Assembly: GCA_002722295.1 (NCBI GenBank) | Contig: PBLF01000031.1 | Span: forward strand, 62,001-126,000 | Length of the DNA stretch: 64,000 bases | Reading direction: 5' to 3' | From: Stappia sp. | Lineage (GTDB): Bacteria > Pseudomonadota > Alphaproteobacteria > Rhizobiales > Stappiaceae | Shown: positions 37,326 to 53,523 of the stretch, piece after piece | Position numbering within the stretch: the stretch's first letter is position 1 | Layout: every line of letters begins with the position of its first letter | Notes under the pieces: model-generated | Database searches by the model: none | What the model saw: only the letters and a program-made list of their open reading frames with translations | What the model was told of the DNA's origin: nothing | Made by a program: the position numbers and the translations under genes

Positions 37326-37417
37326 GATTGGCGTTTCCTGCCTGCAAGTCAGTCGCAACAAGGTGATCCAGGCGGAAGCCGATTGCGTCTGAGACGATGA
37401 GCGGAAAGGACGAGTGC

Positions 37418-38335
37418 ATGTCTTCGAGGATGACGCGCCTGCCGGTGCTGGCTGCCGTGGCCCTGATGGCCGGAACAGCGCTGACGGGCAGTGCGCTGGC
37501 GGCTTCCGGGCGGATGAAGGTCGTGACCACCTTCACCGTGCTTGCCGACATGGCGCGTCATGTGGCCGGCGATGCGGCGGATGTGGTCTCGATCACCAAG
37601 CCGGGGGCCGAGATCCATGGCTACGAGCCCACGCCGCAGGACATTGTCGGGGCGCATGGCGCGGACCTGATCCTGTGGAACGGCATGAACCTCGAACTCT
37701 GGTTCGAGCAGTTTCTCGCCAACCTCGGCGACGTGCCCTCCGCGACGTTGAGCGAGGGCATCGATCCGATCCCGATCGCGGCCGGCGCCTACGAGGGCAA
37801 GCCCAACCCGCATGCCTGGATGGGGCTCGACAACGCGCTGATCTACATCGACAACATCGAGAAGGCATTCAGCGAGCACGACCCCGATCACGCCGCGACC
37901 TACAAGGCGAATGCCGCGGCCTACAAGGACAGCCTGCGCGAGACGCTTGAGCCTTTGCGTCGGGAAATCGCCTCCATTCCCGAGGACCGGCGCTGGCTGG
38001 TCACCTGCGAGGGGGCGTTCAGCTACCTCGCCCGGGACTTCGGCATGAAGGAACTCTACCTCTGGCCGATGAATGCGGACCAGATGGGGACGCCGCAGCA
38101 GGTGCGCGCGGTCATCGACGGTGTCAGGCAGCATGACATTCCCGTCGTCTTCTGTGAAAGCACGGTCAATACGGCCCCGGCGCAGCAGGTGGCGCGCGAG
38201 ACCGGAGCGCACTACGGTGGCGTTCTGTATGTCGATAGTCTCTCGGAAGCCGGCGGACCGGTTCCCTCCTATCTCGACCTGCTTCGCGTCACCTCCAGGA
38301 CCTTAGCGGACGGATTGAAATCCGGCATGAACTGA
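37418..38335 (+). CDS. sitA: Manganese/iron ABC transporter substrate-binding protein SitA
   Basis: 305 aa, cluster A-I metal-binding protein (PF01297). Signal peptide residues 1-29. The four metal ligands align with PsaA/MntC: His67 (EIHGYEPTP), His132 (NPHAWMG), Glu198 (TCEGAFSYL) and Asp273 ([10 protein letters not shown]). Glu at the third site, where zinc proteins have His, points to Mn(II)/Fe(II) over zinc. ATG at 37418 is preferred (AGGA seven bases upstream). First gene of sitABCD. Confidence 0.94.
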
Positions 38336-38403
38336 TCGGACGGGACGGGCGGGTGCCATCTTGCGCCGTCCCGCGAGACGCCTCCCAGGCGGAAGGACCC
38401 AGG

Positions 38404-39306
38404 ATGAAACGTCAAAGCCAGATGCCCCCTGCCGTATCGCATGCGGATGCGGACCCTGGAGGCGGTATCGCGGCGCGGGACATCACGGTCACCTATCGCA
38501 ACGGTCATACGGCCCTGCGCAATGCGTCCTTCGAAATCCCGCGCGGTACGGTAACCGCGCTCGTTGGTGTCAACGGGGCGGGAAAGTCCACCCTGTTCAA
38601 GGCGATCATGGGCTTCGTGCCGGCGTCCAGGGGCGAGATCCGGCTGCTCGGGCTCACCGTCAGGGAGGCGCTGAAGAAAAACCTCGTCGCCTATGTCCCG
38701 CAATCCGAGGAGGTCGACTGGTCCTTCCCCGTGCTGGTCGAGGACGTGGTCATGATGGGGCGCTACGGCCACATGGGATTTCTGCGCCGGCCCTTACAGG
38801 TCGACCGTGACGCGGTGGATGCCGCCCTTGCCCGCGTCAACATGCAGGAGTACCGGCACCGCCAGATAGGGGAGCTCTCGGGCGGCCAGAAGAAACGGGT
38901 CTTCCTCGCCCGTGCGCTGGCGCAGGACGGACAGGTCATCCTTCTCGACGAGCCTTTCACCGGTGTCGACGTGAAGACCGAGGAGCAGATCGTCGCGCTG
39001 TTGCGCGAGCTGCGCGACGAGGGGCGGGTCATGCTGGTCTCGACCCACAACCTCGGCTCGGTGCCCGAATTCTGCGACCGCACCGTTCTGGTCAAGGGGA
39101 CGGTGCTCGGCTACGGCCCGACACAGACCACCTTCACGCGCGAGAACCTGGAGGCGGCCTTCGGCGGCGTCCTGCGGCACTTCACGCTGGGCGGGTCGGA
39201 CCTGCACGAGGACGACGACGCGCGCAAGGTGTCGATCCTGACCGACGACGAGCGCCCCCTCGTCCAGTACGGCGACGAGATCCGGGTGACGGAGAAGCGG
39301 CAATGA
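38404..39306 (+). CDS. sitB: Manganese/iron ABC transporter ATPase SitB
   Basis: 300 aa. Walker [10 protein letters not shown], signature [17 protein letters not shown], Walker [13 protein letters not shown], His of H-loop in VSTHNLG. An N-terminal tail of about 25 residues precedes the ABC domain, and a C-terminal extension of ~50 residues ([18 protein letters not shown]) follows it, somewhat longer than in other SitB/MntB proteins. The 3' end overlaps sitC by four bases (ATGA). Confidence 0.94.
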
Positions 39307-40166
39307 GCGTGCTTCTGGAACCCTTCGCCTACGGATACATGACCAACGCCATGTGGGTGTCCGCCCTCGTCGGCGGTGTCTGCGCCTTCCTGTCCTCCTA
39401 TCTGATGCTCAAGGGCTGGTCGCTCATCGGCGATGCCCTGTCCCATTCCGTCGTGCCCGGTGTCGCGGGGGCCTATATCCTCGGGCTTCCCTTCGCGCTG
39501 GGCGCCTTTCTCTCGGGTGGCCTGGCGGCGGCGGCGATGCTGTTCCTCTCCGACCGGTCCGGGCTGAAGGTCGACGTCATCATCGGCATTATCTTTACCT
39601 CTTTCTTCGGGCTCGGGCTGTTCATCGCCTCGGTGAACCCCATGGCGGTGTCGATCCAGACGATCACCATGGGTAACATCCTCGCGATCACGCCGGGAGA
39701 CACGCTCCAGCTCGCGATCATCGGTTTCGTGTCGCTGGCGATCCTGCTCGCCAAATGGAAAGACCTCATGGTCGTCTTCTTCGACGAGAGCCATGCGCGC
39801 TCGATCGGCCTGCGGCCCGGCCTGCTGAAAGCGGTGTTCTTCGTGTTGCTGTCGGCCTGCGTGGTCGCGGCGATGCAGACGGTCGGGGCCTTTCTCGTCA
39901 TCGCCATGGTGGTGACACCCGGCGCCACCGCCTATCTGCTGTGCGACCGCTTTCCCCGCCTCATCACCACGTCGGTCGCGATCGGCACGCTGACGAGCTT
40001 CGTCGGCGCCTATGCGAGCTTCTTTCTGGATGGCGCGACGGGGGGCATCATCGTGGTGCTGCAGACCCTGATCTTCCTCGTCACCTTCGTGTTCGCGCCC
40101 AAGCACGGGCTGTTGGCCGCGCGACGCAAGGCGGCCGCCGCGGCCAGCGAAGGGGAGGCGGCATGA
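39303..40166 (+). CDS. sitC: Manganese/iron ABC transporter permease SitC
   Basis: 287 aa, ABC-3 family permease (PF00950) with about eight hydrophobic segments: [35 protein letters not shown] in consecutive segments near the N-terminus, [11 protein letters not shown] near the C-terminus. Second of four sit genes to be linked by an ATGA overlap (with both sitB and sitD). Pairs with SitD to form the channel. Confidence 0.94.
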
Positions 40167-40999
40167 TGTTCGACACGCTGCTTCTGCCGTTCCAGTTTCC
40201 CTTCATGCAGAATGCCTTCTGGATCTGTGTGATCGTGTCCGTGCCGACCGCGCTGCTGTCGTGCTTCCTGGTGCTGAAGGGCTGGGCGCTCATGGGTGAT
40301 GCGGTCAGCCATGCGGTGCTGCCGGGGATCGTGCTTGCCTATGTGCTCGGCTTTCCGCTGATCCTCGGGGCCTTCGGCGCCGGAATGGTGACGGCGCTCG
40401 CGACCGGCTATCTTTCGGAGAACAGCCGGGTGAAGCAGGACACCGTCATGGGCGTGGTGTTCTCCGGCATGTTCGGCCTCGGCATCGTCATCTATGTCTC
40501 GATCCACACCAATGTGCATCTCGATCACATCCTGTTCGGCAACATGCTCGGTGTGGGCGCTGACGATCTCTGGACGGCGGGCCTGATCTCGTCTGGCGTG
40601 GCGGCTGTGTTGCTCCTCAAGTGGAAGGACCTGATGCTGCACGCCTTCGATCCGGCCCAGGCGCGGGCCTCGGGACTTCCGGTCGGGCTGTTGCACTACG
40701 GGCTGCTGACGGTCCTCTCGCTGACCATCGTGGCGACGCTGTCGGCCACCGGGCTCATTCTGGCCGTTGGGCTGTTGATCGCGCCCGGCGCGATCGCCTT
40801 TTTGAGCGTGCGCAGCTTCGGCCGGATGCTCGTGGTGTCCGTGATCGTGTGCATGGCGTCGATGGTGCTTGGTGCCTATCTGAGCTTCTTCCTCGACAGC
40901 GCTCCCGCGCCGACGGTCGTGCTGATCCTGACGGCGGCCTTCGTGATCGCCTTCATTCGCCGCACGTTGCAGGTCAAGCGGGCCTCGGCGACGGCCTGA
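40163..40999 (+). CDS. sitD: Manganese/iron ABC transporter permease SitD
   Basis: 278 aa, a second ABC-3 permease, related to SitC (shared LKGW-LMGDA-SHAVLPGIVLAY type motif). Start ATG at 40163 overlaps sitC and has GGGGAGG upstream. The presence of two distinct permeases is the mark of Sit/Mts type importers against the single-permease znu type. It ends the operon; zinT follows after 260 bases with its own operator. Confidence 0.94.
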   Translation: MMFDTLLLPFQFPFMQNAFWICVIVSVPTALLSCFLVLKGWALMGDAVSHAVLPGIVLAYVLGFPLILGAFGAGMVTALATGYLSENSRVKQDTVMGVVFSGMFGLGIVIYVSIHTNVHLDHILFGNMLGVGADDLWTAGLISSGVAAVLLLKWKDLMLHAFDPAQARASGLPVGLLHYGLLTVLSLTIVATLSATGLILAVGLLIAPGAIAFLSVRSFGRMLVVSVIVCMASMVLGAYLSFFLDSAPAPTVVLILTAAFVIAFIRRTLQVKRASATA

Positions 41000-41143
41000 C
41001 AGCCGTCGTAGCTGGCCTATGGCCCGGGAGCGCTTCGCTCCCGGCGCTCGCGCACGCTCCGATCTCGCTCCGGTTTTCCCCGATCTCGTCGCCTCTTGCC
41101 CGTTTTGCCATTGGCAGCCGGATGGCGTTGGGCTAGAACGCAA

Positions 41144-41160
41144 ATGTTATGAAATAACAT
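41144..41160. promoter_or_regulatory. Zur-box-like palindrome upstream of zinT
   Basis: ATGTTAT-GAA-ATAACAT, a 7-bp perfect inverted repeat in the context AAATGTTATNNNATAACAT, which fits the alphaproteobacterial Zur consensus as I know it. It is 103 bases before the zinT start. Zinc-dependent repression inferred. Confidence 0.7.
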
Positions 41161-41262
41161 ATCGAACAAAGGTCGCGGAAACGCGGTCGTTGTCTGGCAT
41201 TCCGCCTCTCTCGGAAGAGGTCCGGATGCGGGCACGTTCGGGATGCAAAGAGGTCAGTCAGA

Positions 41263-41940
41263 ATGAAACAGGCAATGCTTCGTACCTCCGCCGCGCTGCT
41301 CGCGGCGGCTGTTCTTTCCAGTGTTCCGGCTGCGGCGGAACAGTCCGGCAAGGAGCACAAGCACGACCATTCCCACACCCATGACCATGGTCATGACCAC
41401 GGCGAGAGGTCCGTCTACAAGGGCTATTTCGAGGACAGTGCGGTTGCCGAGCGGCCGCTTGCCGACTGGGAAGGGGACTGGCAGTCAGTCTATCCCTATC
41501 TGGCCGACGGCACTCTGGATCCCGTGATGGCCCACAAGGCCGACCACGGCGAGAAGACCGCCGAGGAGTACAAGGCCTACTATGAGGTGGGCTACAAGAC
41601 GGACGTGAACCGCATCGTCATCGACGGTGACCGGGTCGCGTTCCATGGCGCGAACGGCGTTGCGGAAGGGCGCTACGCCTCCGACGGATACGAGATCCTG
41701 ACCTACAAGAAGGGCAATCGCGGTGTGCGTTTCATCTTCAGGAAGACGGAAGGCGATGCCGGGGCTCCGGGCTTCATCCAGTTCAGCGATCATCGCATCG
41801 CGCCGGCTCCGGCCGATCACTATCACCTCTACTGGGGCGACGATCGTGCCGCGCTGCTGAAGGAAGTGACCAACTGGCCGACCTACTATCCGGCGTCGCT
41901 GAGCGGTGAGGAAATCGTTCGGGAGATGATGGCGCACTAG
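41263..41940 (+). CDS. zinT: Zinc-binding periplasmic protein ZinT (YodA family)
   Basis: 225 aa. Signal peptide (1-25, AAAEQ), then a His-rich segment (residues ~31-48, alternating His/Asp) and a ZinT lipocalin-like domain (PF09223) with DWEGDWQSVYPYLADGTLDPVM at its start and DHYHLYWGDD, which carries two of the metal-binding histidines. ZinT proteins bind zinc in the periplasm under deficiency and pass it on to ZnuA. Located right after sitABCD with a Zur-like site, so Mn and Zn uptake functions lie side by side. Confidence 0.94.
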   Translation: MKQAMLRTSAALLAAAVLSSVPAAAEQSGKEHKHDHSHTHDHGHDHGERSVYKGYFEDSAVAERPLADWEGDWQSVYPYLADGTLDPVMAHKADHGEKTAEEYKAYYEVGYKTDVNRIVIDGDRVAFHGANGVAEGRYASDGYEILTYKKGNRGVRFIFRKTEGDAGAPGFIQFSDHRIAPAPADHYHLYWGDDRAALLKEVTNWPTYYPASLSGEEIVREMMAH

Positions 41941-42026: not shown

Positions 42027-42350
42027 TCAGGTCGTGGAGACGTCGGCGAGCTTGGTCGCGACCGTGTTGAGCGCGGCGAGCTTGGCATCGGCCGAGCCGT
42101 TCTTGTAGGCCCCCTCGATGAGGGCCACCATCTCGCGGAACTTGTCGAGGAGGGCCTCGGACTCGTCCACCGGCAGCGGCTGGTCGTCATAGGCCTCGAC
42201 GACGCCCTGGGCGGCATACATGACGAGCGTCAGCGCGGCGGCGTTCTCCGGCTCGTCCTTGATGCGCGCGCGCGCCGCGCGGGCGCAGGCATCGTAGGCG
42301 CGGACCCCGTGGCCACCGTCGACGACGGTCTGGATCAGTTGCTCAAACAT
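42027..42350 (-). CDS. Small alpha-helical protein of unknown function
   Basis: 107 aa starting MFEQLIQTVVDGGHGVRAYDACARAARARIKDEPENAAALTL in consecutive segments. Predicted all-helical, no signal peptide or membrane segment, no motif I recognise. ATG at 42350 has GGAG six bases upstream; a second ATG two codons earlier directly abuts the GGAG and is less likely. It is downstream of pyrE on the same strand after 120 bases, and may be the last gene of the pyrimidine operon or independent. Confidence 0.65.
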   Translation of the reverse strand: MFEQLIQTVVDGGHGVRAYDACARAARARIKDEPENAAALTLVMYAAQGVVEAYDDQPLPVDESEALLDKFREMVALIEGAYKNGSADAKLAALNTVATKLADVSTT

Positions 42351-42469: not shown

Positions 42470-43165
42470 TCAGCTCGGCAGCTCGGTGATGCCGCCGTGG
42501 TTGCCGGACCACTCGAGAGGGTTGTTCAGGAACGCCTCGACCTGGTCGAGCACGGCGGTCGGGAAGAGGCCGCCTTCCTTGCAGACCCTGAGAACGTCCC
42601 ACCAGGTCGCGAGATAGTGCAGGCGCATGCCGGCGGCCTTGAGGCGCTCCGGCGTGCCGGGGAAAATGTCGTAGTAGAAGACCGAGAACGTATCGCTCGC
42701 CTCGGATCCCGACTTGCGGATCGCCTCGGCGAACTTCACCTTGGAGCCGCCGTCGGTGATCAGGTCCTCCACGAGAAGGACGCGGGAGCCTTCCTTCAGG
42801 TTGCCCTCGATCTGGGCGTCACGGCCGAAGCCCTTCGGCTTCTTGCGCACGTAGAGCATGGGCAGGCCGAGCCGTTCGGACAGCCAGGCGGCGAAGGGAA
42901 TGCCGGCCGTCTCGCCGCCGGCCACGGAATCGAACTGCTCGAAGCCCGCGTTGCGCAGGATCGTGCCGGCCGCGAAGTCCATCACCGCCGAGCGGATGCG
43001 CGGATAGGAAATGAGCTTGCGGCAGTCGATGTAGACCGGGCTCGCCAGTCCCGATGTGAAGGTATAGGGCTGGTCGGCGCGGAAATGGACGGCCTCGATC
43101 TCCAGCAGCATCTTCGCCACCATCTCGGAAATCAGCGCCTTGTCGGGGAAGGTGTTCGGGAACAT
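42470..43165 (-). CDS. pyrE: Orotate phosphoribosyltransferase PyrE
   Basis: 231 aa. Joins orotate to PRPP giving OMP. The PRPP-binding motif [13 protein letters not shown] (residues 129-141) and the catalytic loop region [17 protein letters not shown] are clear. It lies 120 bases downstream of pyrC on the same strand, with a GC-rich 8-bp hairpin in the gap (about 43227-43245). In this context it could use orotate made in the cell or orotate taken up by the TRAP transporter at the head of the operon. Confidence 0.97.
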
Positions 43166-43285: not shown

Positions 43286-44347
43286 TTAGTTCCCCTGCGG
43301 GCAAGCAGTGCGTTCCACATTCCAGTGGATCGGGCGCATGGGATCGAACACCGTGACGGCCTCGCTGCCGGCCATGACCTTCGCCGGAAAGTCGACGGGC
43401 GCGTCCTGGCGGACGAGCGTCACGCGCTCCTCGTTGACCGGAAGGCGGTAGTAGGCTGGTCCGTTCAGCGACACGAATGCCTCGAGGCGATCCAGCGCGC
43501 CGTCTTCCTCGAACACGGTTGCCAGGCACTCCAGCGTGTTGGGTGCACAGAAGATTCCCGCGCAGCCGCAGCCGCATTCCTTCGAGGGATCCACATGCGG
43601 TGCGGAATCCGTGCCGAGGAAGAAGCGGGCATCGCCGGAGGTGGCCGCCTTGCGCAGGGCGAGGCGATGGCTCTCGCGCTTGGCCACCGGCAGGCAGTAG
43701 TAGTGCGGGCGGATGCCGCCGGCCAGGATGGCGTTGCGGTTGATCATGAGATGATGCGGCGTGATCGTCGCGCCGAGGTTTTTCTCCGCGCCCATGACGA
43801 AGTCGACGCCATCGCTCGTGGTCACGTGCTCCAGCACCACACGCAGTTCGGGCAGGCGCTCGCGCAGGGGGGCGAGCACGGTCTCGAGAAACACCGCCTC
43901 GCGATCGAAGATGTCGACGTCCGCGCTGGTCACCTCGCCATGAACGCACATGGTCATGCCGATTTCGGCCATGCGCTCGAGCACGGGCATGACCTTGTCG
44001 ATGGAGCGCACGCCGGACTGGGAGTTGGTCGTCGCGCCGGCCGGATAGAGCTTGGCGGCGGTGACGGTCCCGTCCCTGAAGCCGGCCTCGACATCGTCGG
44101 GATCGGTGCCCTCGGTCAGGTAGAGCGTCATCAGCGGCGTGAAGGAATGCTCCTTCGGCAGGGCGGCCAGGATCCGCTCGCGATAGGCGACCGCGTCGGC
44201 GGTGGTCACCACCGGGGGCACCAGGTTCGGCATGATGATGGCACGGGCGAAGGTCGCCGAGGTATGAGGCAGGACGCTCTTCAGCATCTCGCCGTCGCGC
44301 AGGTGCAGGTGCCAGTCATCGGGCTTGCGGATCGTCAGCTTGGTCAT
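43286..44347 (-). CDS. pyrC: Dihydroorotase PyrC (E. coli type)
   Basis: 353 aa. Interconverts N-carbamoyl-L-aspartate and dihydroorotate. Metal ligands: HxH in [10 protein letters not shown] (His13, His15), the carbamylated Lys99 in [13 protein letters not shown], the His in MCVHGEVT and EHVTTSDGV, and Asp in [10 protein letters not shown]. This short (about 350 aa) type is distinct from the 430-aa type often next to pyrB. Its start overlaps the stop of the M20 amidohydrolase gene (ATGA). The reaction is freely reversible, so it can serve synthesis or degradation. Confidence 0.97.
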
Positions 44348-45627
44348 TGGCCCTCCGTCAGGTGGGAATAGAGGATGTCGCAGCCGGCTAGGAAATCGGA
44401 CAACTCCATGGCTTCCTGCGGATTGTGCGAGCCGTTGCGGTTGCGCACGAAGACCATGCCCGAGGGAATGCCGGCAGCGGCGAAGACGGCCGCATCGTGG
44501 CCACCGCCGCTGGGCATGACGAAGGGCTCGAGTCCGACGCGCGCCATCGCCTGCTTCAGGCCGGCGACGATGTCCTTGTCGCAGATCGCGGGCTCGGAGC
44601 GCAACTCCATGTCGAGCTCGAAACGCACTTTCCGGTCCCGCTCGATCTCCGACATCTCCGTCCGGATGAGGTCGCGCATGTCGTCCAGCACCTCCGCCGA
44701 CTGTGAGCGGACGTCGAGGCTGAAGCCGATCTCGTCGGGAATGCGCGACAGGGCATTGGTGGCGGGATCCGTGCCCACCATGCCGCTCGTGAGCACGAGA
44801 TCGTCGCCCTTGTTCAGGATCGTCGCCCAGCTCTCGTCGAGACGCACCATCAGGTCGGCGAAGGCGAGCACCGGGTCGCGGCGGTAGGCCTTGGGCACGG
44901 CGCCGGAGTGTCCGGCCTCGCCGATGCAGCGGATCCTGCGGTGGCGGAAGTTGCCGCGAATGCCGGAGACGGCGGCCGCGGGCAGGTTCTTGCCGATCAG
45001 CAGCGGTCCCTGCTCGATGTGGAGTTCCAGATAGGCCTCGACGCGGTCGAGATCGATGAGCTTCTCGTGGGCCTTGATGCGCTCGAGCGGCAGGCCGATC
45101 TCGGCCATGTGCTCGCCGAGCGTGCGGCCGTCGCCCTTGTGCCTCGAACCGATCTCGTCATCGCTGAGGCTTGCGGTCAGGACCTTGGAGCCGATGTAGC
45201 AGGGGCCGAACCAGGCGCTTTCCTCGCCGCGCATGGCCAGCGCGTGCACGGGCCGGGAAAAGCGGGTTCCGGCGCGTTTTGCGCGCACCAGGAGCACAAG
45301 TGCCGCGATGACGCCCGCCAGCCCGTCGAAATTGCCGCCGTGGGGAACGCTGTCCACGTGCGAGCCGACGAGGACGTAGCGCTCTGCATCACGGTCCTCG
45401 GGCAGCGAGACATTGAGGTTGCAACCGTCGTCGTACCAGGTGGCGAGGCCCTCGCCCCGGGCGAAATCCTCGAGATAGCGGAGCGTCTCGGTCTCGATCC
45501 CGGAAAAGGCCGGCCGGCTGACGCCCTCGGTGTCCGGGCTCATGGCCGCGATGTCGTCGAACAGGCGTGCGACGAGGTCGAACTCGCCGTCGGAGGTCCT
45601 GGAGGTGTGCGTGCCGGTCCTGGTCAT
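44344..45627 (-). CDS. M20 family N-carbamoyl-amino acid amidohydrolase (candidate ureidosuccinase)
   Basis: 427 aa, of the HyuC/AllC/AmaB group, which hydrolyse N-carbamoyl compounds to amino acid, CO2 and NH3. Metal ligands are in place: His90 ([16 protein letters not shown]), Asp101, Glu136 (GEESAWF), His203 (LHIEQGP) and His401 (GSHNPQE); the domain-2 motif [17 protein letters not shown] is also present. It overlaps pyrD upstream and pyrC downstream by four bases each. The only N-carbamoyl metabolite between those enzymes is N-carbamoyl-L-aspartate, so this is proposed as ureidosuccinase. Other carbamoyl amino acids or allantoate are possible substrates. Confidence 0.85.
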
Positions 45628-46568
45628 TGGGCCACCGCCATCATTGTGCTTGCAAGGTCCTCCTCGCCGTCGGCCACCGTGCCGATGATGTCGCGCACCG
45701 AGGAGATATCGCGCGCCCGGAGCCAGGTGTCGAGATCGTCGATGATGGTGAGCATGGCCGTGGGGTGGATGAAGGTGGCCGTGCCCACCTGCACCGCCGA
45801 GGCGCCGGCAATCATGTATTCCAGCACGTCCGAGGCGGTGGCGATGCCGCCGCAGCCGATCACCGGCAGACGCGAGGCGCGGGCGCACTGATAGGCCATG
45901 CGCAGCGCGATCGGCTTCAGGCCGGGACCCGAGAGGCCGCCCATGACGTTGCCGAGGCGCGGGCGGCGGGTCTCGATGTCGATGGCCATGGAGAGGATCG
46001 TGTTGGCGACGACAAGCGCGTCGGCGCCGCCGTCCTCGGCCGCGCGGGCGACATCCGGCACCTCGCCGGTGTTGGGCGTCAGCTTCGCCCACAGCGGCAG
46101 GTGGCTTGCCGCGCGCAGGCGCTTCATGATGTCCAGCGTGGAAGAGGGGCGGATGGCGAAGGCCTTGCCGTCTTCCTCGATGTTCGGACAGGAGATGTTG
46201 ACCTCGATTGCCGCGACGCCATCGACGCTGACCGCGCTGCACAGTTCGGCGAATTCGTCCGCCGTGTTGCCGGAGATGGAGACCACCAGCGGCGTCTCGT
46301 AGCGACGGTAGAAGGGAACGACCTTCTCCAGGAAGGCCGTCACGCCCTTGGAGGGGATGCCGATGGAGTTCAGCATCGAGCCGTTGACCTCGCACACGCG
46401 GGGCGTCGGATTGCCCTCGCGCAGGCCGAGCGTGATGGTCTTGGTGACATGGGCGCCGATACGCTCCAGGTCGAAGACCTCCGCCAGTTCCTCGGAGAAG
46501 GTGCCGGAGGCCGGCATCACCGGGTTCTTCAGCGTCAGCGCGCCGATCTGGACAGAAAGATCACTCAT
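45624..46568 (-). CDS. pyrD: Dihydroorotate dehydrogenase class 1B catalytic subunit PyrD
   Basis: 314 aa. FMN enzyme of the cytosolic class 1B: the active-site base is Cys127 in EVNISCPN (class 2 membrane enzymes have Ser). FMN contacts appear in THVTKTITL-like KTIT (43-46), NTIL and GCGGIATASDVLEYMIAGASAVQVGTA in successive segments. It works with PyrK, whose gene overlaps its start by four bases, to use NAD. Class 1B is common in Firmicutes; most alphaproteobacteria rely on class 2, so this may be an extra or replacing enzyme. Confidence 0.94.
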   Translation of the reverse strand: MSDLSVQIGALTLKNPVMPASGTFSEELAEVFDLERIGAHVTKTITLGLREGNPTPRVCEVNGSMLNSIGIPSKGVTAFLEKVVPFYRRYETPLVVSISGNTADEFAELCSAVSVDGVAAIEVNISCPNIEEDGKAFAIRPSSTLDIMKRLRAASHLPLWAKLTPNTGEVPDVARAAEDGGADALVVANTILSMAIDIETRRPRLGNVMGGLSGPGLKPIALRMAYQCARASRLPVIGCGGIATASDVLEYMIAGASAVQVGTATFIHPTAMLTIIDDLDTWLRARDISSVRDIIGTVADGEEDLASTMMAVAQ

Positions 46569-47401
46569 GCGACCACCTCCGACATGTCGAACACCGGGCC
46601 TTCTCGGCAGACCCTGAGATAGACGATGGCGCCGTCGCGCTTCAGCGGACGCACGCAGCACTGGCACATGCCCAGCCCGCAGGCCATCTGCTGTTCCAGC
46701 GCGATCTGGCCCGGCACGCCGTGGGCCTTGCCGACCTTCTGCAGCAGGCGCAGCAGGCGGTTGGACCCGCAGGTGTAGAAGGCATCGGCACGTCCCTCGG
46801 CGATCAGGCGCTCCAGGATCGTCTCGAGGTTCTGCGGGCTGGAGCTGCCGTCGTCGTCCGTGACCGTGATGACGTCGGCGCCGAGCGCTGCGAAATGCTC
46901 CGTCGACATCAGGTAGTCGGGATGACGCGCGCTGCAGATGGCCGTGAGCTTGCGGCCGAGCCGGTTCGCCTCGATGGCGAGGGGGGCGAGCGTGGCGAGA
47001 CCGACGCCGCGGGCGACGAGCACGAGGTGCTGCCAGTCGTCCTCAATGGAGAAGGGTTCGCCGAGCGGGCCGACGACGTTCAGTTCGTCCCCGGTCCCGA
47101 GCGTGGCGAGCGCGCGGGTGCCGGCTCCCGTCACCTTGTAGAGGAAGTGAAGCTCGCCCTTTTCCGGATAGAAGCCGTAGATGCTCATCGGGCGGCGCAG
47201 GTAGGGTGCCTCGCCGCCTGCCTGCGGGCACAGCAGGTTGAAGAACTGGCCCGGACGGCACAGGTCGAGCAGCTCGCGCGGAGCGTCGAGCACCAGCAGG
47301 CGGTACTCGGAATTGACGGGCGTGTTCCCCTTGACCGGGAGGCTGATCTCCTGCGTCAGGAAAGGGGGGGGCGTCGTCACGGTCTGGTCAACGCGCAACA
47401 T
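46565..47401 (-). CDS. pyrK: Dihydroorotate dehydrogenase electron transfer subunit PyrK
   Basis: 278 aa. Carries FAD and a [2Fe-2S] cluster and links PyrD-1B to NAD. FAD-binding motif RRPMSIYGF (70-78); cluster cysteines Cys241, Cys246 and Cys249 in ACGLGMCQCCV plus Cys265 in LRVCREGPVF. One extra cysteine (248) is adjacent. ATG at 47401 has AAGGAAAC upstream; its stop overlaps pyrD. It begins 65 bases after the TRAP dctM stop, on the same strand. PyrK lets the enzyme run with NADH toward orotate reduction as well as the reverse. Confidence 0.94.
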   Translation of the reverse strand: MLRVDQTVTTPPPFLTQEISLPVKGNTPVNSEYRLLVLDAPRELLDLCRPGQFFNLLCPQAGGEAPYLRRPMSIYGFYPEKGELHFLYKVTGAGTRALATLGTGDELNVVGPLGEPFSIEDDWQHLVLVARGVGLATLAPLAIEANRLGRKLTAICSARHPDYLMSTEHFAALGADVITVTDDDGSSSPQNLETILERLIAEGRADAFYTCGSNRLLRLLQKVGKAHGVPGQIALEQQMACGLGMCQCCVRPLKRDGAIVYLRVCREGPVFDMSEVVA

Positions 47402-47466
47402 GGGTCGTTTCCTTGTGATGTCGTTCCGGCCGGATGCCCCGGCGGCGCTGGTCCCGCGCGGGGCTC

Positions 47467-48753
47467 CTAGCCGAGAAGAAGTCTCGGCAGGAAGGTCGAG
47501 ATGTCCGGCACGTAGGTGATGATCGCGAGGACGATCAGATTGGCGACGATGAACGGCGCCACGCCGGCGATGATCGCCGTGACAGGTTTCTGCAGGGTCG
47601 AGGAGGCGACGAAGAGGTCGAGCCCGAACGGGGGCGTGATCATGCCGATGGAAATGTTCAGCGTGACGATCATGCCGAAGTGGACGGGGTCGACGCCAAG
47701 CGCCTGGGCGACCGGGAACAGCGGCGGGATGAGGATCAGCAGCGCCAAGTTCGGATCGAGGAACATGCCCGCGATCAGGAAGCAGATGTTGATGATGATG
47801 AGGAAGGTGATCGGTCCCGCATCGATCGCGGTCAGGAAGCCGGTGATGGCGCTCGGCACCTGCGCGAGCGTGATGAAGAAGGAGATCAGGCCGCCCATGG
47901 CGAGCAGGATGAACACGATCGCCGTCGAGACGGCCGCGCGCTCGGTGATCTTCACCAGCTTGGAGAAGGAAAGCTCGCGGTAGATCAGTCCTTCCACGAA
48001 GATCGCGTAGACGACGCTGACCGCCGCCGCCTCGGTCGGGGTGAGGATGCCGGAGTAGATGCCGCCGAGAATGATGACGGGCATTCCGAGCGGCCAGAAG
48101 GCGGCCTTGAGTGCCTGGCCGCGTTCGGCCCAGGTGGTCTTCTCGCCCGGGGCGATGCCGGTCCGGCGCGCCTCGATGTGCGCCATGATGGCGAAGGCGA
48201 TGCCAAGCGCGAGGCCGACGGCAAGGCCGCCCACGAAGAGCTTGGCGATGGAGGTGCCCGTCATCCAGCCGTAGATGATGAAGGTGATGGACGGGGGGAT
48301 GAGCAGCGCGGTCTCGGCGCTGGAGACGATCAGTCCGAAGGAGAACTTGTCGCGGTAGCCCGCCTTCTTCATCTCCGGATAGACCATGCGGGCGGTTGCC
48401 GCGACGGTGGCCGGCGCCGAGCCGGACACGGAGCCGAAGGCCATGGACCCACCGATGGTGGTGAAGCCCATGCCCGCGCGCAGGTGGCCGACGAAGGCCT
48501 TGACCAGGCCGGTCAGGCGGCGGGCGATCTGGCCCTCGCCCATGAGTTCGGCCGCCAGGATGAAGAAGGGCACGGCGAGCAGCGTCGTGTGGTTGATGCC
48601 GCCGAGGATCTTCTGCGAGATCACCGGATCGGGAAGGCTCGCGTAGAAGGCCTCCTTGACCAACAGCGCGGGCACGCCGAGGACGAGGAACATCTCGAAG
48701 CCGGTCACGAGCATGACGACCGCGACGGCGATGATGAGAAGCAGAATGATCAT
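47467..48753 (-). CDS. dctM: TRAP transporter large permease DctM (pyrimidine operon)
   Basis: 428 aa, about 12 hydrophobic segments. Family motifs: GSMAFGSVSGSAPATVAATARMVYPEM in sequence, LLIPPSITFIIYGWMTG, and near the end LNISIGMITPPFGLDLF. Clearly a different subfamily from the DctM at 2.1-3.4 kb. Its start overlaps dctQ by one base. It precedes pyrK with only 65 bases between, so the transporter is likely cotranscribed with the pyrimidine enzymes. Proposed substrate: orotate or dihydroorotate, both carboxylates; inference from context. Confidence 0.93.
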   Translation of the reverse strand: MIILLLIIAVAVVMLVTGFEMFLVLGVPALLVKEAFYASLPDPVISQKILGGINHTTLLAVPFFILAAELMGEGQIARRLTGLVKAFVGHLRAGMGFTTIGGSMAFGSVSGSAPATVAATARMVYPEMKKAGYRDKFSFGLIVSSAETALLIPPSITFIIYGWMTGTSIAKLFVGGLAVGLALGIAFAIMAHIEARRTGIAPGEKTTWAERGQALKAAFWPLGMPVIILGGIYSGILTPTEAAAVSVVYAIFVEGLIYRELSFSKLVKITERAAVSTAIVFILLAMGGLISFFITLAQVPSAITGFLTAIDAGPITFLIIINICFLIAGMFLDPNLALLILIPPLFPVAQALGVDPVHFGMIVTLNISIGMITPPFGLDLFVASSTLQKPVTAIIAGVAPFIVANLIVLAIITYVPDISTFLPRLLLG

Positions 48754-49253
48754 CAGTGCGGCTCCGTCTGCTGGCCGGCGAAACGGTCGATAAGTCCGAG
48801 GAAGCTCAGCGCGAAGCGCAGGCCCATCAGCGCGAAGCCGATGGCCGGGGCGAGATAGATCCAGAACACGGGGACGTTGAGGGTCGGGCTCTTCTGGCCA
48901 CTGGCGAAGACGAAGGCGGTCATCTCGTAGCTCAGCCAGATCAGGTAGCAGCAGAAGAAGAAACCGACGAAATCGATGATGCGCCGGAGCGGCAGGCCGG
49001 TGCGGCGCGCGATCTTTTCGCGCCAGGTGTGGATGCCGGCATGGCGTCCCTGGTCGAGGGCGAGACCCACGGCCATGAAGGTCAGGAACAGGCTCAGGAG
49101 CCGGACGGCTTCCTCGATACAGGCGAAGTCGGAGGCGAAGGTGCCGCCGACCTGGCGGGCCAGCACGTTCAGCGAGAAGAGGACCACCATCGTCAGGAAG
49201 ATCGTGACGACGGCGGCGCGCTCGGCCGCTCTGAGTATGGCTAGGAGCTGCAT
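48753..49253 (-). CDS. dctQ: TRAP transporter small permease DctQ (pyrimidine operon)
   Basis: 166 aa with four hydrophobic segments. FASDFACIEEAVRLLSLFLTFMAVGLALDQGRHAG in consecutive blocks corresponds to the DctQ core, where the small permease has an acidic residue before helix 2. It follows dctP after 109 bases that contain a GC-rich stem-loop, and overlaps dctM by one base. Confidence 0.9.
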   Translation of the reverse strand: MQLLAILRAAERAAVVTIFLTMVVLFSLNVLARQVGGTFASDFACIEEAVRLLSLFLTFMAVGLALDQGRHAGIHTWREKIARRTGLPLRRIIDFVGFFFCCYLIWLSYEMTAFVFASGQKSPTLNVPVFWIYLAPAIGFALMGLRFALSFLGLIDRFAGQQTEPH

Positions 49254-49284
49254 CTGGTGTTCCTGTCCGCCTGCCCTGAAGGTC

Positions 49285-49309
49285 TCCGCCGGCCGAAGGG
49301 GCCGGCGGA
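49285..49309 (-). repeat. Intercistronic stem-loop after dctP
   Basis: TCCGCCGGCC / GGCCGGCGGA, a 10-bp stem with 5-base loop, between dctP and dctQ. No T run on the minus strand. It probably stabilises or partly terminates the transcript so that more binding protein is made; a similar hairpin follows the binding-protein gene at 60.6 kb. Confidence 0.6.
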
Positions 49310-49362
49310 AGGGTCGTTGCCGGGGGAGGGCGCGGAAACGGTCCCGCGCCCTGCCTCGTGGC

Positions 49363-50385
49363 TTACTTGGTCGCGGCCTCGTAGGCCTTCTCGTAGACGG
49401 CGAGCAGGTCCTCGCCCTCCTTGCCGGCGCGCTCGATGTAGGCGGCGCGGGTGGCCGGATACATCTTCTCGCGGAAGGCGGCCTTTTCCTCGGCGCTCAT
49501 CTCGCTGACCTCGATGCCGGACGCCTTGATCTCCTCGAGAGCGGCCTGGATGGAGGCGTTCTTGTGGGCGATCAGGTCCGGGATGACCTCCTCGAAGGCC
49601 TCGGTGATGACGGTCTTGTACTCGTCCGGCAGCGCGCCCCACCAGGCGGTGTTGAAGAGGATCACGTCCTCCATGGCGCCGTGGTTGGAGACGACGAGAT
49701 GCTTCTGTACCTCGTAGAACTTCATGCGCTGGATGGTGTCGAGCGGGTTCTCCTCACCGTCGACCAGACCGGTCTGCAGGGAGGTGTAGAGCTCGCCGAA
49801 CGGCAGGGCGATCGCCGAGGCGCCGACGGCCTTGAACTGCTCGATGAGGATGTTGCTGTCCATGACGCGGAACTTCTGGCCCGCGAAGTCGTCGATCGAG
49901 GAGATCGGCTTCGAGGAGGTGAAGTTCTTGCGCCCGTTCGGCCACAGGCCGAGGCAGGTCACGCCGCGCGAGGAGAAGGTCTCGCAGAGCGCGTCGCCGA
50001 AGGCGCCGCCACGGATTTCCTGCGCCGTCGCGTCGTCCTCGGGCAGAAGGAAGGGGATGTCGAGGATCGACACGGCCGGGTTGAAGCCGCCGAGGAAGGC
50101 GGCCGGGGCGACGGTGGCCTCCAGAACGCCGAGCTGAACGCCCTCGTTCATCTCACGCTGGGAGCCGAGCTGGCCCTGCGGGAAGATCTGGAACTCGACG
50201 GCGCCGTCGGTGCGCTCGGCGACGAGCTCGGCGACCTTCTCCAGATGGACGTGACGCGACTGCTGGGTCGATTCCAGGTGGCCGATCTTGGCGGTGTATT
50301 CGGCGGCGAAGGCCACCGAGGAGCCGGCAACCGTGACGGCGGCGACGAGCGCCGTGGATGCCAGATGACGAAGGACGGAGTTCAT
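49363..50385 (-). CDS. dctP: TRAP transporter solute-binding protein DctP (pyrimidine operon)
   Basis: 340 aa. Signal peptide (residues 1-28, SVAFAAEY). DctP fold with FPQGQLGSQREMNEGVQLGVLEATVAPAAFLGGF in consecutive segments and the carboxylate-binding Arg in FAGQKFRVMDSNI. ATG at 50385 has GGAGAGG upstream. First gene of a minus-strand operon dctPQM-pyrK-pyrD-M20-pyrC. The upstream region shared with the divergent XRE regulator holds palindromes. The ligand is predicted to be a small carboxylate, and orotate or dihydroorotate are the best guesses from the genes that follow. Confidence 0.93.
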   Translation of the reverse strand: MNSVLRHLASTALVAAVTVAGSSVAFAAEYTAKIGHLESTQQSRHVHLEKVAELVAERTDGAVEFQIFPQGQLGSQREMNEGVQLGVLEATVAPAAFLGGFNPAVSILDIPFLLPEDDATAQEIRGGAFGDALCETFSSRGVTCLGLWPNGRKNFTSSKPISSIDDFAGQKFRVMDSNILIEQFKAVGASAIALPFGELYTSLQTGLVDGEENPLDTIQRMKFYEVQKHLVVSNHGAMEDVILFNTAWWGALPDEYKTVITEAFEEVIPDLIAHKNASIQAALEEIKASGIEVSEMSAEEKAAFREKMYPATRAAYIERAGKEGEDLLAVYEKAYEAATK

Positions 50386-50418: not shown

Positions 50419-50447
50419 AGCGTAAGGGCGCGCGGACGGTCCGTCAA
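50419..50447 (-). promoter_or_regulatory. Candidate promoter of dctPQM-pyr operon
   Basis: Minus strand TTGACG, 17-base spacer, TACGCT. The -35 box is good, the -10 poor, which suits an activated promoter. It lies just downstream of the palindrome at 50452-50471. Confidence 0.4.
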
Positions 50448-50451
50448 CGCA

Positions 50452-50471
50452 AAATCTCAAAAATGAGATTT
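50452..50471. promoter_or_regulatory. Palindrome in divergent region (operator candidate)
   Basis: AAATCTCA-AAAA-TGAGATTT, an 8-bp perfect inverted repeat, immediately upstream of the -35 box of the dctP promoter candidate. Likely bound by the divergent XRE regulator; inferred. Confidence 0.55.
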
Positions 50472-50580: not shown

Positions 50581-51477
50581 GTGCCGGCCGGCGACCTCAT
50601 CAGTTTTTCGGATATCGGAGCGAGGTTAAGGGCTTATCGGCTTGGCAAGGGCTTTACGCCCGAGGAGCTTGCCGAGAATCTCGGCATTTCCCGTGCCGCG
50701 CTCTACCGCGCCGAAAAGGGCGAGATCCGCAAGATCGAGACCCTGACCCGTATCGCGGGCGAGCTTGGCGTTTCGCTGGCGAGCCTGATGGGGGTTGGTG
50801 TCGAGTATGTCAGCTCGTCCATCGCCTTCTTCGAGCGGATGCGCCAGCTCGAGGAAAGCTGCGAGCAGATCATCGGCCTCTTCAGTCCGGTGTCCTATCT
50901 CCTGACGTCCGACACCTATGACGAGATCCTGCGCGAGGTTCTGCTGGAATCGCTTCCCGAGGCGGTGATGCCCGCCGGCGAGGCTGAGGAACTGGTGAAT
51001 GCGCTGCTGGAGATCCTGCGCGCCCGCAAGAAGACCTTCCACCTGCGCCGGCCGCTTATCGTCAGCCTGATCGCCTCCGCGGATCTGGAGCGTTTCCTCC
51101 TGCGCGGGCTGATCGGTCGGCACGATCTTCCCGCGGCGGTGGCCCGCCGCCGCCGCGAGCAGGCGCGCAAGGAGGCCATGTCGATCCTCGAGATGCTGCG
51201 CGAGGAGCCGATCGGCATCCAGATCGGCATCGTGCGTGAGCCCGTGCCTGCGACGAGTTTCCAGATCTTTCGCCAGAACGACCGCTCGCTGCTGGCGATC
51301 AGCCCGTTCCGGCTCGGTGAGCAGCCCAACATCCGCGTCGGTGTGGCGCTGATTACCGCGGCCGAGGAAGCCATGAGCCTTCACGAGGAGATTGCGGCAA
51401 GCCTCTGGCGCGAGGCACTCAAGGGGCGCGAGGCGGCGGAGCACCTGGAAGCGATGATCGAGAAATACGCGATCTGA
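50581..51477 (+). CDS. XRE-family regulator with ~220-residue C-terminal domain
   Basis: 298 aa from GTG (GGAA seven bases upstream). N-terminal HTH, residues ~10-65: LRAYRLGKGFTPEELAENLGISRAALYRAEKGEIRKIETL. The remaining ~220 residues are largely helical and do not match a domain I recognise; this architecture (short XRE HTH plus long C-terminal domain) is seen next to catabolic or transport operons in Rhizobiales. Divergent from dctPQM-pyr, with palindromes between, so it probably regulates that operon, sensing a pyrimidine-related carboxylate. Ends at a strong terminator. Confidence 0.85.
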   Translation: MPAGDLISFSDIGARLRAYRLGKGFTPEELAENLGISRAALYRAEKGEIRKIETLTRIAGELGVSLASLMGVGVEYVSSSIAFFERMRQLEESCEQIIGLFSPVSYLLTSDTYDEILREVLLESLPEAVMPAGEAEELVNALLEILRARKKTFHLRRPLIVSLIASADLERFLLRGLIGRHDLPAAVARRRREQARKEAMSILEMLREEPIGIQIGIVREPVPATSFQIFRQNDRSLLAISPFRLGEQPNIRVGVALITAAEEAMSLHEEIAASLWREALKGREAAEHLEAMIEKYAI

Positions 51478-51522: not shown

Positions 51523-52467
51523 TCATTCCTGACGGGCGGAGATCTCCGAAATCATGGCCTTGCCGATCTCCGCGATTGCCGCGTTGCGCGTGGTGATGTC
51601 AGCGGAACTTCCGGTCATGTAGATCACGGCCAGGTGCGGCGTGCCCGTCTCTGGCCAGATCACGGAAATGATGCCGCGCGTGCCGTTGGCGCCCGCACCC
51701 GTCTTGTCGGCAATGCGCCAGGTCGGGGGAAGGTGCTTGCGGATCAGCGCATCGGCCACCTTGTCGTTGACCATCCATGTTTCCAGACGCTTGCGTGACG
51801 CCGGAGCCAGGCCGGCGCCGAGGATCAGCGTTTCCAGCGTGCGGGCCATGGCGGCCGGCGTGGTGGTGTCGCGCGGATCGCCGGGAATGGAGGCGTTGAG
51901 TTCCGGCTCGGTGCGGTCGAGCCGCGTCGTGTCGTCACCGATCCCGCGCAGGAAGGTCGTGACGCCCTTCGGGCCTCCGACGGTCGTGAGAAGCAGGTTG
52001 GTCGCGGTGTTGTCGGACACGCTTACCGACGCCTCGCAGAGTGCATCGATCGTCAGTCCCGGGCCGCCGGCGTATTTTTCCGTCACGGGGGAATAGGTCA
52101 CGAGGTCCGAGGGCTGGTAGGCGATCTTGCGGTCAAGGCGTTCCTCTCCGCGCTCGACGCGGGCGAGAACCGCGGCGCACAGGGAAGGCTTGAAGGTGCT
52201 GGCGGTCGGGAAGCGTTCGTCCGCGCGGATCGCGACGACCGGCGTGTCCGCTCCGGTTTCGCGAAGGACCACGCCGATGCGCCCGCCAAGGCGTTGCTCG
52301 AGCCGTGAAACCGTATCGGCGACCTCGCCGGACAATGCGGGGCCGCAGAGGCCGAGCGTGACGATGGCGGCCGCGACCGCGCGTGACGCGACACGAAGGC
52401 CGAGGTTCGCGGACTGGATACGCAGACCTGAAAGCAGTTGAACGGATGTCGGGGGGAAGGAGTGCAT
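51523..52467 (-). CDS. Class A beta-lactamase
   Basis: 314 aa. Active-site elements are complete: Ser90-Thr-Phe-Lys93 (STFK), Ser151-Asp-Asn153 (SDN), Glu187 in EPELN (Glu166 in Ambler numbering) and Lys255-Thr-Gly257 (KTG). Hydrophobic signal region residues ~28-47; a cysteine there lacks a proper lipobox. ATG at 52467 has AAGG upstream. Divergent from an AmpR gene, so inducible expression through peptidoglycan fragments is likely. Spectrum cannot be told. Sequence neighbours are chromosomal genes and show no mobile element. Confidence 0.95.
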   Translation of the reverse strand: MHSFPPTSVQLLSGLRIQSANLGLRVASRAVAAAIVTLGLCGPALSGEVADTVSRLEQRLGGRIGVVLRETGADTPVVAIRADERFPTASTFKPSLCAAVLARVERGEERLDRKIAYQPSDLVTYSPVTEKYAGGPGLTIDALCEASVSVSDNTATNLLLTTVGGPKGVTTFLRGIGDDTTRLDRTEPELNASIPGDPRDTTTPAAMARTLETLILGAGLAPASRKRLETWMVNDKVADALIRKHLPPTWRIADKTGAGANGTRGIISVIWPETGTPHLAVIYMTGSSADITTRNAAIAEIGKAMISEISARQE

Positions 52468-52623
52468 GGAGTGCCTTTCCGCAGGGCCGGGGAGGCCCGG
52501 TGTTTCAGTTTGTCTAATGGAAAGTCTGGCGGTGGCGTTCCGGAAAGCCCGCATGTCCGGTATAGGGCGCGGGGTGTGAGGCGGCCAAACGACAAATCTT
52601 TGAAGTTCGCATAAGGTCAGCTA

Positions 52624-53523
52624 ATGGCTCTGGACAGACCGAACCTTCCTCTCAACGGCCTTCGCGCGTTCGAGGTCTCCGCCCGGCAGGGGAGCTTCAC
52701 CCGCGCGGCCATCGAGTTGCGCGTGACCCAGGCTGCCGTGAGCCAGCAGGTCCTGCGGCTCGAGGACCTGCTGGGCGTGCGCCTCTTCACCCGTTCCTCG
52801 TCCGGTCTCGTGCTGACAGATGAAGGGCAGGCGCTGGTGCCGCTGCTCACCCGAAGTTTCGACGAGATGGGCGAAATGCTCGACCGTTTCGCGGAGGGGC
52901 GCTACCGGGAAACGCTGCATGTGGGCGCGGTCACGACCTTCGCGGTCGGCTGGCTGATGGAGCGGCTGCCGGGTTTCGAGGTCGCCCATCCCGGCATCAG
53001 CCTGCGTCTCTTCACCAACAACAACCGCTCGGAACTGTCGCGCGAGGGGCTTCACATGGCGATCCGCTTCGGCGACGGCCAATGGCCCGGTGTCGTGGCG
53101 ACCCCGCTCATGGAGGCGCCGCTGACGCCGCTTTGCGCGCCCGAAACGGCCACGCGGCTCGCCTCTCCGGCGGACCTTCGCGCCGAGGTGCTGTTGCGCT
53201 CCTACCGCGCGGACGAATGGCGGGTCTGGTTCGAGCAGGCCGGCGTCGCGCCGCCGGAGCTTGCCGGGCCGGTCTTCGACAGTTCGCCTGCCATGGCGGA
53301 CGTGGCCGAGGCCGGTCACGGCGTTGCGCTGCTGCCCTCGGCGATGTTTGCAAGGCGGCTTTCGGCGGGGCGGCTCGTGCGGCCGTTCGCCGGGGAAATC
53401 GGCGTGGGCCGATACTGGATCACGCGCTCGCGCGGACGCGAGCCCTCCCGCGCCATGCGGCTGCTGGAGGAATGGCTCGTGCGGGAGTGCGCGGGGCCGG
53501 TGCGGCAAGCACCGGGAGAGTGA
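52624..53523 (+). CDS. ampR: LysR-family beta-lactamase regulator AmpR
   Basis: 299 aa. Starts with the AmpR-type HTH LPLNGLRAFEVSARQGSFTRAAIELRVTQAAVSQQVLRLEDLLG in consecutive segments. AmpR-typical features in the effector domain: HVGAVTTFAVGWLMERLPGFE, LFTNNNRSELSREGLHMAIRFGDG, LLRSYRADEW and VFDSSPAM. Known AmpR proteins sense muropeptides versus UDP-MurNAc-pentapeptide and activate a divergent beta-lactamase gene, here class A. The 156-base divergent region should hold its operator, though I cannot point to it with certainty. AAGG lies seven bases before ATG. Confidence 0.93.
   Translation: MALDRPNLPLNGLRAFEVSARQGSFTRAAIELRVTQAAVSQQVLRLEDLLGVRLFTRSSSGLVLTDEGQALVPLLTRSFDEMGEMLDRFAEGRYRETLHVGAVTTFAVGWLMERLPGFEVAHPGISLRLFTNNNRSELSREGLHMAIRFGDGQWPGVVATPLMEAPLTPLCAPETATRLASPADLRAEVLLRSYRADEWRVWFEQAGVAPPELAGPVFDSSPAMADVAEAGHGVALLPSAMFARRLSAGRLVRPFAGEIGVGRYWITRSRGREPSRAMRLLEEWLVRECAGPVRQAPGE

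Follow-up and report, generated by a model that had tools for sequence, protein, structure and literature searches.

The window analysed here, a stretch of 64,000 nucleotides from Stappia sp. (GenBank assembly GCA_002722295.1, contig PBLF01000031.1, positions 62,001 to 126,000), contains an operon that probably imports orotate through a tripartite ATP-independent periplasmic (TRAP) transporter and degrades it to L-aspartate, CO2 and NH3. Catabolism of orotate had been suggested from the gene order in an earlier reading of this DNA (the original prediction). At the level of sequence, that reading is supported by the kinship of the receptor DctP with a protein whose structure was solved with orotic acid (PDB 4NN3), by the pocket residues of PyrD, by the presence of a class 2 PyrD in all 17 cluster-bearing genomes tested, and by the placement of the M20 hydrolase in a clade whose genes have pyr genes as neighbours. 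In the proposed pathway, DctPQM would import orotate, PyrK-PyrD, a class 1B dihydroorotate dehydrogenase (DHODH), would reduce it to dihydroorotate with NADH, and PyrC would open the ring to give N-carbamoyl-L-aspartate. The M20 enzyme would then hydrolyse N-carbamoyl-L-aspartate to L-aspartate, CO2 and NH3 and pull the reversible steps forward. PyrE would salvage part of the imported orotate to uridine monophosphate (UMP), so that de novo synthesis would be dispensable for as long as the catabolic enzymes are present. Orotate is the presumed inducer, and control would be exerted by a divergent XRE-type regulator at an operator upstream of the -35 box.

The breakdown of orotate by bacteria is biochemistry about 70 years old, and the orotate fermentation of Clostridium (Zymobacterium) oroticum reportedly goes back to Lieberman and Kornberg in the 1950s. 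To our knowledge, no gene is known for ureidosuccinase. C. oroticum uses the same kinds of steps (NAD-linked orotate reduction, ring opening and ureidosuccinase) but is a fermenting anaerobe characterized by its biochemistry, whereas the system described here is a gene cluster of Pseudomonadota with a transporter and a regulator and is known from its genes. No description of such a gene cluster was found in open-access papers, although a published account is possible since subscription journals lie mostly outside that literature; nor did the word ureidosuccinase occur in the open-access literature searched. With this cluster, ureidosuccinase has a candidate gene, a function can be proposed for a set of genes annotated as 'Zn-dependent hydrolase', and biosynthetic pyr genes would have been recruited into catabolism.

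The open reading frames and the sequence confirmed seven genes in the order originally predicted, all on the minus strand: dctP (49363-50385), dctQ (48753-49253), dctM (47467-48753), pyrK (46565-47401), pyrD (45624-46568), the M20 hydrolase gene (44344-45627) and pyrC (43286-44347). The predicted junctions were likewise present, with a 1-base overlap of dctQ and dctM, ATGA overlaps at pyrK/pyrD, pyrD/M20 and M20/pyrC, and a gap of 65 bases between dctM and pyrK. The unit is larger than the span first described and also includes a divergent regulator gene (50581-51477, plus strand), an operator, pyrE (42470-43165, minus strand) and a gene for a small helical protein (42027-42350, minus strand). 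Pfam and NCBIfam scans matched the names given to the DctP, DctQ, DctM, PyrD, M20 and PyrC gene products; the TRAP small permease DctQ matched PF04290, and the large permease DctM and the receptor DctP were over the cut-offs of TIGR00786 and TIGR00787, respectively.

Related clusters were found in other genomes, as the original prediction had proposed to look for. The bacterial order of the window was surveyed in 249 genomes, its own included, and 19 had an M20 match at an E value of 1e-100 or better; stretches around M20 were taken from the 18 other genomes. Since pyrK, pyrD and M20 were kept together in 16 of these 18 stretches, the grouping is more than chance. The cluster was joined by dctPQM in 13 and a homologue of the regulator was present in 15; the exceptions were one stretch with pyrE only (L050) and one with none of the cluster genes (L051). 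A second, M20-based survey of named genomes used the best 80 of 588 confirmed loci. Twenty of these had pyrK and pyrD, 13 more had pyrE or pyrC, and 47 had none of the four genes inside 8 kb; 22 of the 47 came from stretches of less than 20 kb, and part of the absences may therefore be edge effects. The pooled set comprised 98 loci, namely 36 with pyrK and pyrD (pyrKD loci), 14 with pyrE or pyrC only and 48 unlinked to pyr genes. Inside 8 kb of M20, the 36 pyrKD loci contained the regulator (27 loci), dctM (19), pyrE (27) and pyrC (16). Among the organisms represented are Roseibium, Pseudovibrio, Pelagibacterium, Roseomonas, Pigmentiphaga, Variovorax and Cupriavidus; the cluster is present, for example, in Pelagibacterium luteolum (L062) and Roseibium marinum (L053). 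Relatives of the gene set occur in soil bacteria, in sea bacteria and on plasmids. Pairs of pyrE and M20 without pyrKD or a transporter were observed, mostly in Betaproteobacteria (L069, L070, L073, L077, L079, L080, L083, L124 and also L076); copies were counted in five of these genomes (L069, L076, L077, L079 and L124), and in each the paired pyrE was a divergent second copy. At phylum scale, 7 of 398 genomes, the window's own included, passed a threshold of 1e-110. This threshold was rejected as a measure of frequency because it was not specific, with pyrE by M20 in only three of the six other genomes (short loci).

The DctP gene product is a probable orotate-binding protein, as judged from its relatives. 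Its nearest solved chain was 4NN3, at 452 bits against 181 bits for the next chain. It shares 203 of 329 aligned residues (62%) with 4NN3, and the other 49 chains listed were at most 33% identical. The 4NN3 protein, Desal_2161 of Maridesulfovibrio salexigens, is described in one report as bound to orotic acid, with a lysine at position 152 that faces away from the ligand and is an arginine in the other structures compared (PMC11668362). DctP has the same lysine at the usual arginine place (Lys153), and it was invariant in 14 of 14 cluster DctP proteins. Of the two imported ligands considered in the earlier proposal, orotate and dihydroorotate, the evidence favours orotate. The structure model of DctP was weak (predicted local distance difference test, pLDDT, of 59) and no claim is based on it. 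Where the TRAP transporter was missing, a major facilitator superfamily (MFS) protein scoring best with an aromatic-acid/H+ symporter model was often present; such proteins were found at 6 of the 36 pyrKD loci, 1 of the 14 pyrE/pyrC-only loci and none of the 48 unlinked loci. Entry of orotate by a dicarboxylate-type carrier, as proposed here, has a parallel in DctA of Escherichia coli and Salmonella, for which a 2026 review (PMC13328217) cites Baker 1996. Uptake by DctA was described for salvage, whereas the carrier here, TRAP or MFS, accompanies degradative enzymes.

PyrD and PyrK together have the sequence features of a class 1B DHODH with a pocket for orotate. PyrD passed the PRK07259 model (NF005574) with 355 bits (cut-off 269), and PyrK, the FAD/2Fe-2S electron-transfer subunit, contains the DHODB Fe-S domain PF10418, although the PyrK-like protein is divergent in sequence. 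Lys48, Asn72, Gly75, Asn132 and Cys135 (numbering of Lactococcus lactis PyrDB), which we take to have their roles in the pocket of that enzyme, were kept in 18 of 18 cluster PyrD proteins. Columns 193 and 194 were excluded from this comparison because the expected residues were missing there even in the reference row, where the numbering was off. Positions 74-75 were Ile-Gly in all 18 proteins and Glu-Leu in the PreA protein of the same genome, and none of the cluster PyrD proteins had the Glu-Leu pair. By these residues, the pocket matches that of dihydroorotate dehydrogenases and not that of PreA, and the enzyme is probably run as an orotate reductase.

The pocket also bears on the idea that the cluster serves uracil or uridine catabolism, with PyrKD reducing uracil and M20 acting as beta-ureidopropionase. 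Reductive uracil catabolism (PreTA/Pyd) is a similar system in that it combines a flavin/Fe-S reductase, a cyclic amidohydrolase and an M20 carbamoylase, and an ABC transporter with a uridine-phosphorylase-like gene accompanies 5 of the 36 pyrKD loci, under the same operator in two of them (L041 and L045). The cluster differs from PreTA/Pyd in having a class 1B DHODH with Ile-Gly, a dihydroorotase rather than a dihydropyrimidinase, and an M20 protein of a different clade, and its receptor is related to a protein that binds orotate. Furthermore, the genome of the window holds both sets of genes: apart from the orotate-type cluster, contig C11 carries PreA and a dihydropyrimidinase (both over their cut-offs) and a carbamoylase that falls outside the M20 clade of the cluster. 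Because of the residues in the pocket and because PreA and its partner genes are encoded separately, uracil catabolism was set aside as the meaning of the cluster, and we regard it as very improbable. The genes for an ABC transporter and a uridine-phosphorylase-like protein were seen beside pyrKD clusters at L041, L045, L053, L055, L056 and L137, with a phosphopentomutase-like gene also at L041, L055 and L056.

A second pyrD, the presence of which the original prediction had left to be checked, was found in every case: a class 2 PyrD is encoded elsewhere in each of the 17 cluster genomes tested, and the cluster PyrKD is therefore additional. Class 1B enzymes normally serve biosynthesis, and PyrC and PyrE are single in the genome of the window, both of which would fit a PyrKD that is a NAD-linked biosynthetic back-up for class 2 PyrD, with M20 unrelated to it. 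A purely biosynthetic role was set aside given the class 2 PyrD in 17 of 17 genomes. The M20 proteins linked to pyr genes form one clade, and the genes for the transporter and the enzymes are tightly packed into a single unit served by one operator, which makes the back-up the least probable of the explanations considered.

The M20 gene product is a candidate N-carbamoyl-L-aspartate amidohydrolase (ureidosuccinase). It passed the generic carbamoylase model TIGR01879 (265 bits; cut-off 204) and failed every narrower carbamoylase model; the best-scoring models were those of Zn-dependent hydrolases, allantoate enzymes, generic carbamoylases and N-carbamyl-glutamate enzymes. A tree of 100 M20 proteins (the 98 loci, the window and the carbamoylase on C11) was made by a quick method with the Shimodaira-Hasegawa-like approximate likelihood ratio test (SH-aLRT). 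The 51 pyr-linked proteins lay on one side of a single branch (SH-aLRT 99) and the 49 others, including the C11 carbamoylase, on the opposite side. The pathway could be right in all but this enzyme, whose substrate would then be another N-carbamoyl acid; M20 carbamoylases are broad, and TIGR01879 is the only M20 model passed. PyrC, PyrD and PyrE have established roles in handling carbamoyl-aspartate, dihydroorotate or orotate, and the M20 proteins beside them form one clade, which argues for N-carbamoyl-L-aspartate and leaves another substrate improbable. The arginine of an 'SRIP' motif, present in the M20 proteins of the window and of pyrKD-linked loci, was considered as a mark of the substrate and dropped, since this residue is valine in most members from bare pyrE-M20 pairs and lysine in many unlinked proteins.

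The small protein of 107 amino acids is likeliest a subunit of M20. A homologue was detected at 28 of the 36 pyrKD loci and also at L049, and three loci, all of Rhizobiales, encode it as a fusion at the end of M20: L055 (9950-11635), L056 and an Agrobacterium plasmid (L137, 7941-9599). Its structure model is a confident five-helix bundle (pLDDT 92). No Pfam match over the cut-off and no NCBIfam match was found for the sequence, and the fold had no match in the PDB at an E value of 0.001.

The unit contains a class II dihydroorotase, PyrC, with 445 bits for TIGR00856 (cut-off 293), and an orotate phosphoribosyltransferase, PyrE, with 384 bits for NF001729 (cut-off 245). The original prediction cautioned that pyrC and pyrE might be core biosynthetic genes, and this caution holds: no class II dihydroorotase other than PyrC was found in the genome, and pyrE was single too, so both probably serve biosynthesis as well. 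The search for a second pyrC gave a mixed result in that no other class II copy was found and a class I PyrC adjoins pyrB. Active dihydroorotases carry an HxH motif. The class I protein lacks this motif and reads LIDVGVVVGEPG in its place, and it scored 628 bits with the dihydroorotase model PRK09059 (cut-off 645; 383 residues given). Family assignment by NCBIfam alone would make it a dihydroorotase, which counts against its being inactive. If it is inactive, the window PyrC would be the only working dihydroorotase found in this genome, which is 89% complete, and would be common to both biosynthesis and catabolism. Across the 17 cluster genomes, class II PyrC was single in 14 and absent in 3, and pyrE of the window type was single in 16 and absent in 1. 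In 9 of 13 genomes, the pyrE of the cluster was a divergent second copy. Of 12 genomes examined for pyrC, 4 had two copies, one of them in the cluster, and 2 had no class II PyrC.

The frequent presence of pyrE (27 of the 36 pyrKD loci, often as a second copy) and the existence of bare pyrE-M20 pairs would suit a salvage system with an overflow valve, in which orotate is imported mainly for conversion to UMP by PyrE, and PyrKD and M20 drain surplus orotate and carbamoyl-aspartate to balance the pyrimidine pools. Four Klebsiella plasmid stretches that were read have pyrC and no pyrE. Genes that would act on aspartate, which suit the use of orotate as a source of carbon and nitrogen, also lie by a few clusters. 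An aspartate ammonia-lyase homologue flanks 4 of the 36 pyrKD loci (L054, L065, L066 and L081) and none of the 14 pyrE/pyrC-only or 48 unlinked loci. The homologues at L065, L066 and L081 pass NF008909, the aspartase-like frame adjoining the cluster at L054 (13384-14646) has an in-frame stop, and at L066 a malic-enzyme-like gene lies next to the aspartase homologue. We consider an overflow valve unlikely, though less so than the other alternatives, and degradation of orotate the better account of the unit.

The XRE-type regulator consists of an HTH_3 domain (PF01381) and a putative effector part of about 200 amino acids. It probably governs the unit through a single operator that directly precedes the -35 box. 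The candidate operator is an inverted repeat, TCTCA-N4-TGAGA (50455-50468), at the dctP promoter, and the candidate -35 box, TTGACG (50442-50447, minus strand), lies 7 bases downstream of it. The repeat matched once in the window against 0.01 matches expected. Genome-wide, the search used the long form, with TTGAC 5-8 bases on; it matched once, before dctP, and its backward control had no match. The long form occurred at 15 of 132 loci, or 14 distinct places since L029 and L047 are the same, and all were pyr-linked. Two sites each were present at L041, L045 and L047. In the split cluster of L047, one site precedes M20 and one precedes dctP; at both L041 and L045, pyrK has one site in front of it and the ABC transporter and uridine phosphorylase genes have the other. 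The regulator would bind at this conserved operator.

Several observations weigh against orotate degradation as we propose it. The substrate of the candidate ureidosuccinase was deduced from the company of its gene and nothing else. The pathway gives no account of the 14 of 98 loci at which M20 adjoins pyrE or pyrC without pyrKD, and the ABC transporter and uridine-phosphorylase-like genes at 5 of the 36 pyrKD loci hint at another pyrimidine source. Five cluster genomes (the 3 of 17 and 2 of 12 given above) were without class II PyrC, and their dihydroorotase was not looked for. PyrK fell below every NCBIfam PyrK cut-off (219-314 bits), with a best score of 123 bits for a model whose cut-off is 270, and the MFS proteins scored below the cut-off of TIGR00895. 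No aspartase was found in the flanks taken for 32 of the 36 pyrKD loci. Several pyr-linked loci, including L042, L044 and L046, have only imperfect versions of the operator. The M20 gene overlaps that of the sole class II PyrC, an arrangement that could set up a futile cycle involving PyrB if it is not prevented by regulation. Finally, the assembly of the window's genome is rated 89% complete, with 6.6% contamination.

The gene set is also present on plasmids. An M20 relative at an E value of 1e-90 was detected in 71 of 72,556 plasmid records, 53 of them from Klebsiella. Nine of the 71 neighbourhoods were read and all nine had pyrK, pyrD and M20, as confirmed by tblastn, with pyrK annotated 'hypothetical protein' in Klebsiella; the transporter, pyrC and pyrE varied. 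Fifty-three Klebsiella records contained 80% or more of a 7.2-kb module, with an identity of at least 99.9%; no match to the module was found in the E. coli genomes searched. In the four Klebsiella plasmids read (L139, 4540-11777; L143; L144; L145), the module was nearly identical, and lacY and lacZ started about 1.4 kb away. The lldD gene was also near the module in two of the four (L143 and L145). Milk is rich in orotate, and the position of the plasmid copies near lac genes suggests a possible ecological setting. The source was milk or bovine mastitis for 9 of the 53 Klebsiella plasmids, a count for which a base rate is lacking, so no enrichment is claimed. We give about even chances to a broader proposal, namely that the clusters are a mobile orotate-utilization system of Alpha-, Beta- and Gammaproteobacteria (in the last on Klebsiella plasmids), that the missing ureidosuccinase (EC 3.5.1.7) is to be found in the M20 clade and works together with a new accessory subunit, a five-helix protein fused to M20 in some cases, and that the copies near lacZY may form an island for milk sugar and milk orotate.

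Other features were noted in passing. Two places in the genome of the window (C2, 92352-92912, and C16, 22437-22997) have identical TIGR01879 scores, a hint of duplicated sequence in this contaminated assembly. On one side of the unit, window positions 37397-41940 appear by eye to contain a zinc uptake operon (a binding protein, an ATPase and two permeases) and a His-rich, ZinT-like protein. On the other side, the open reading frame at 51523-52554 resembles by eye a class A beta-lactamase and adjoins a LysR-type gene at 52624-53523.

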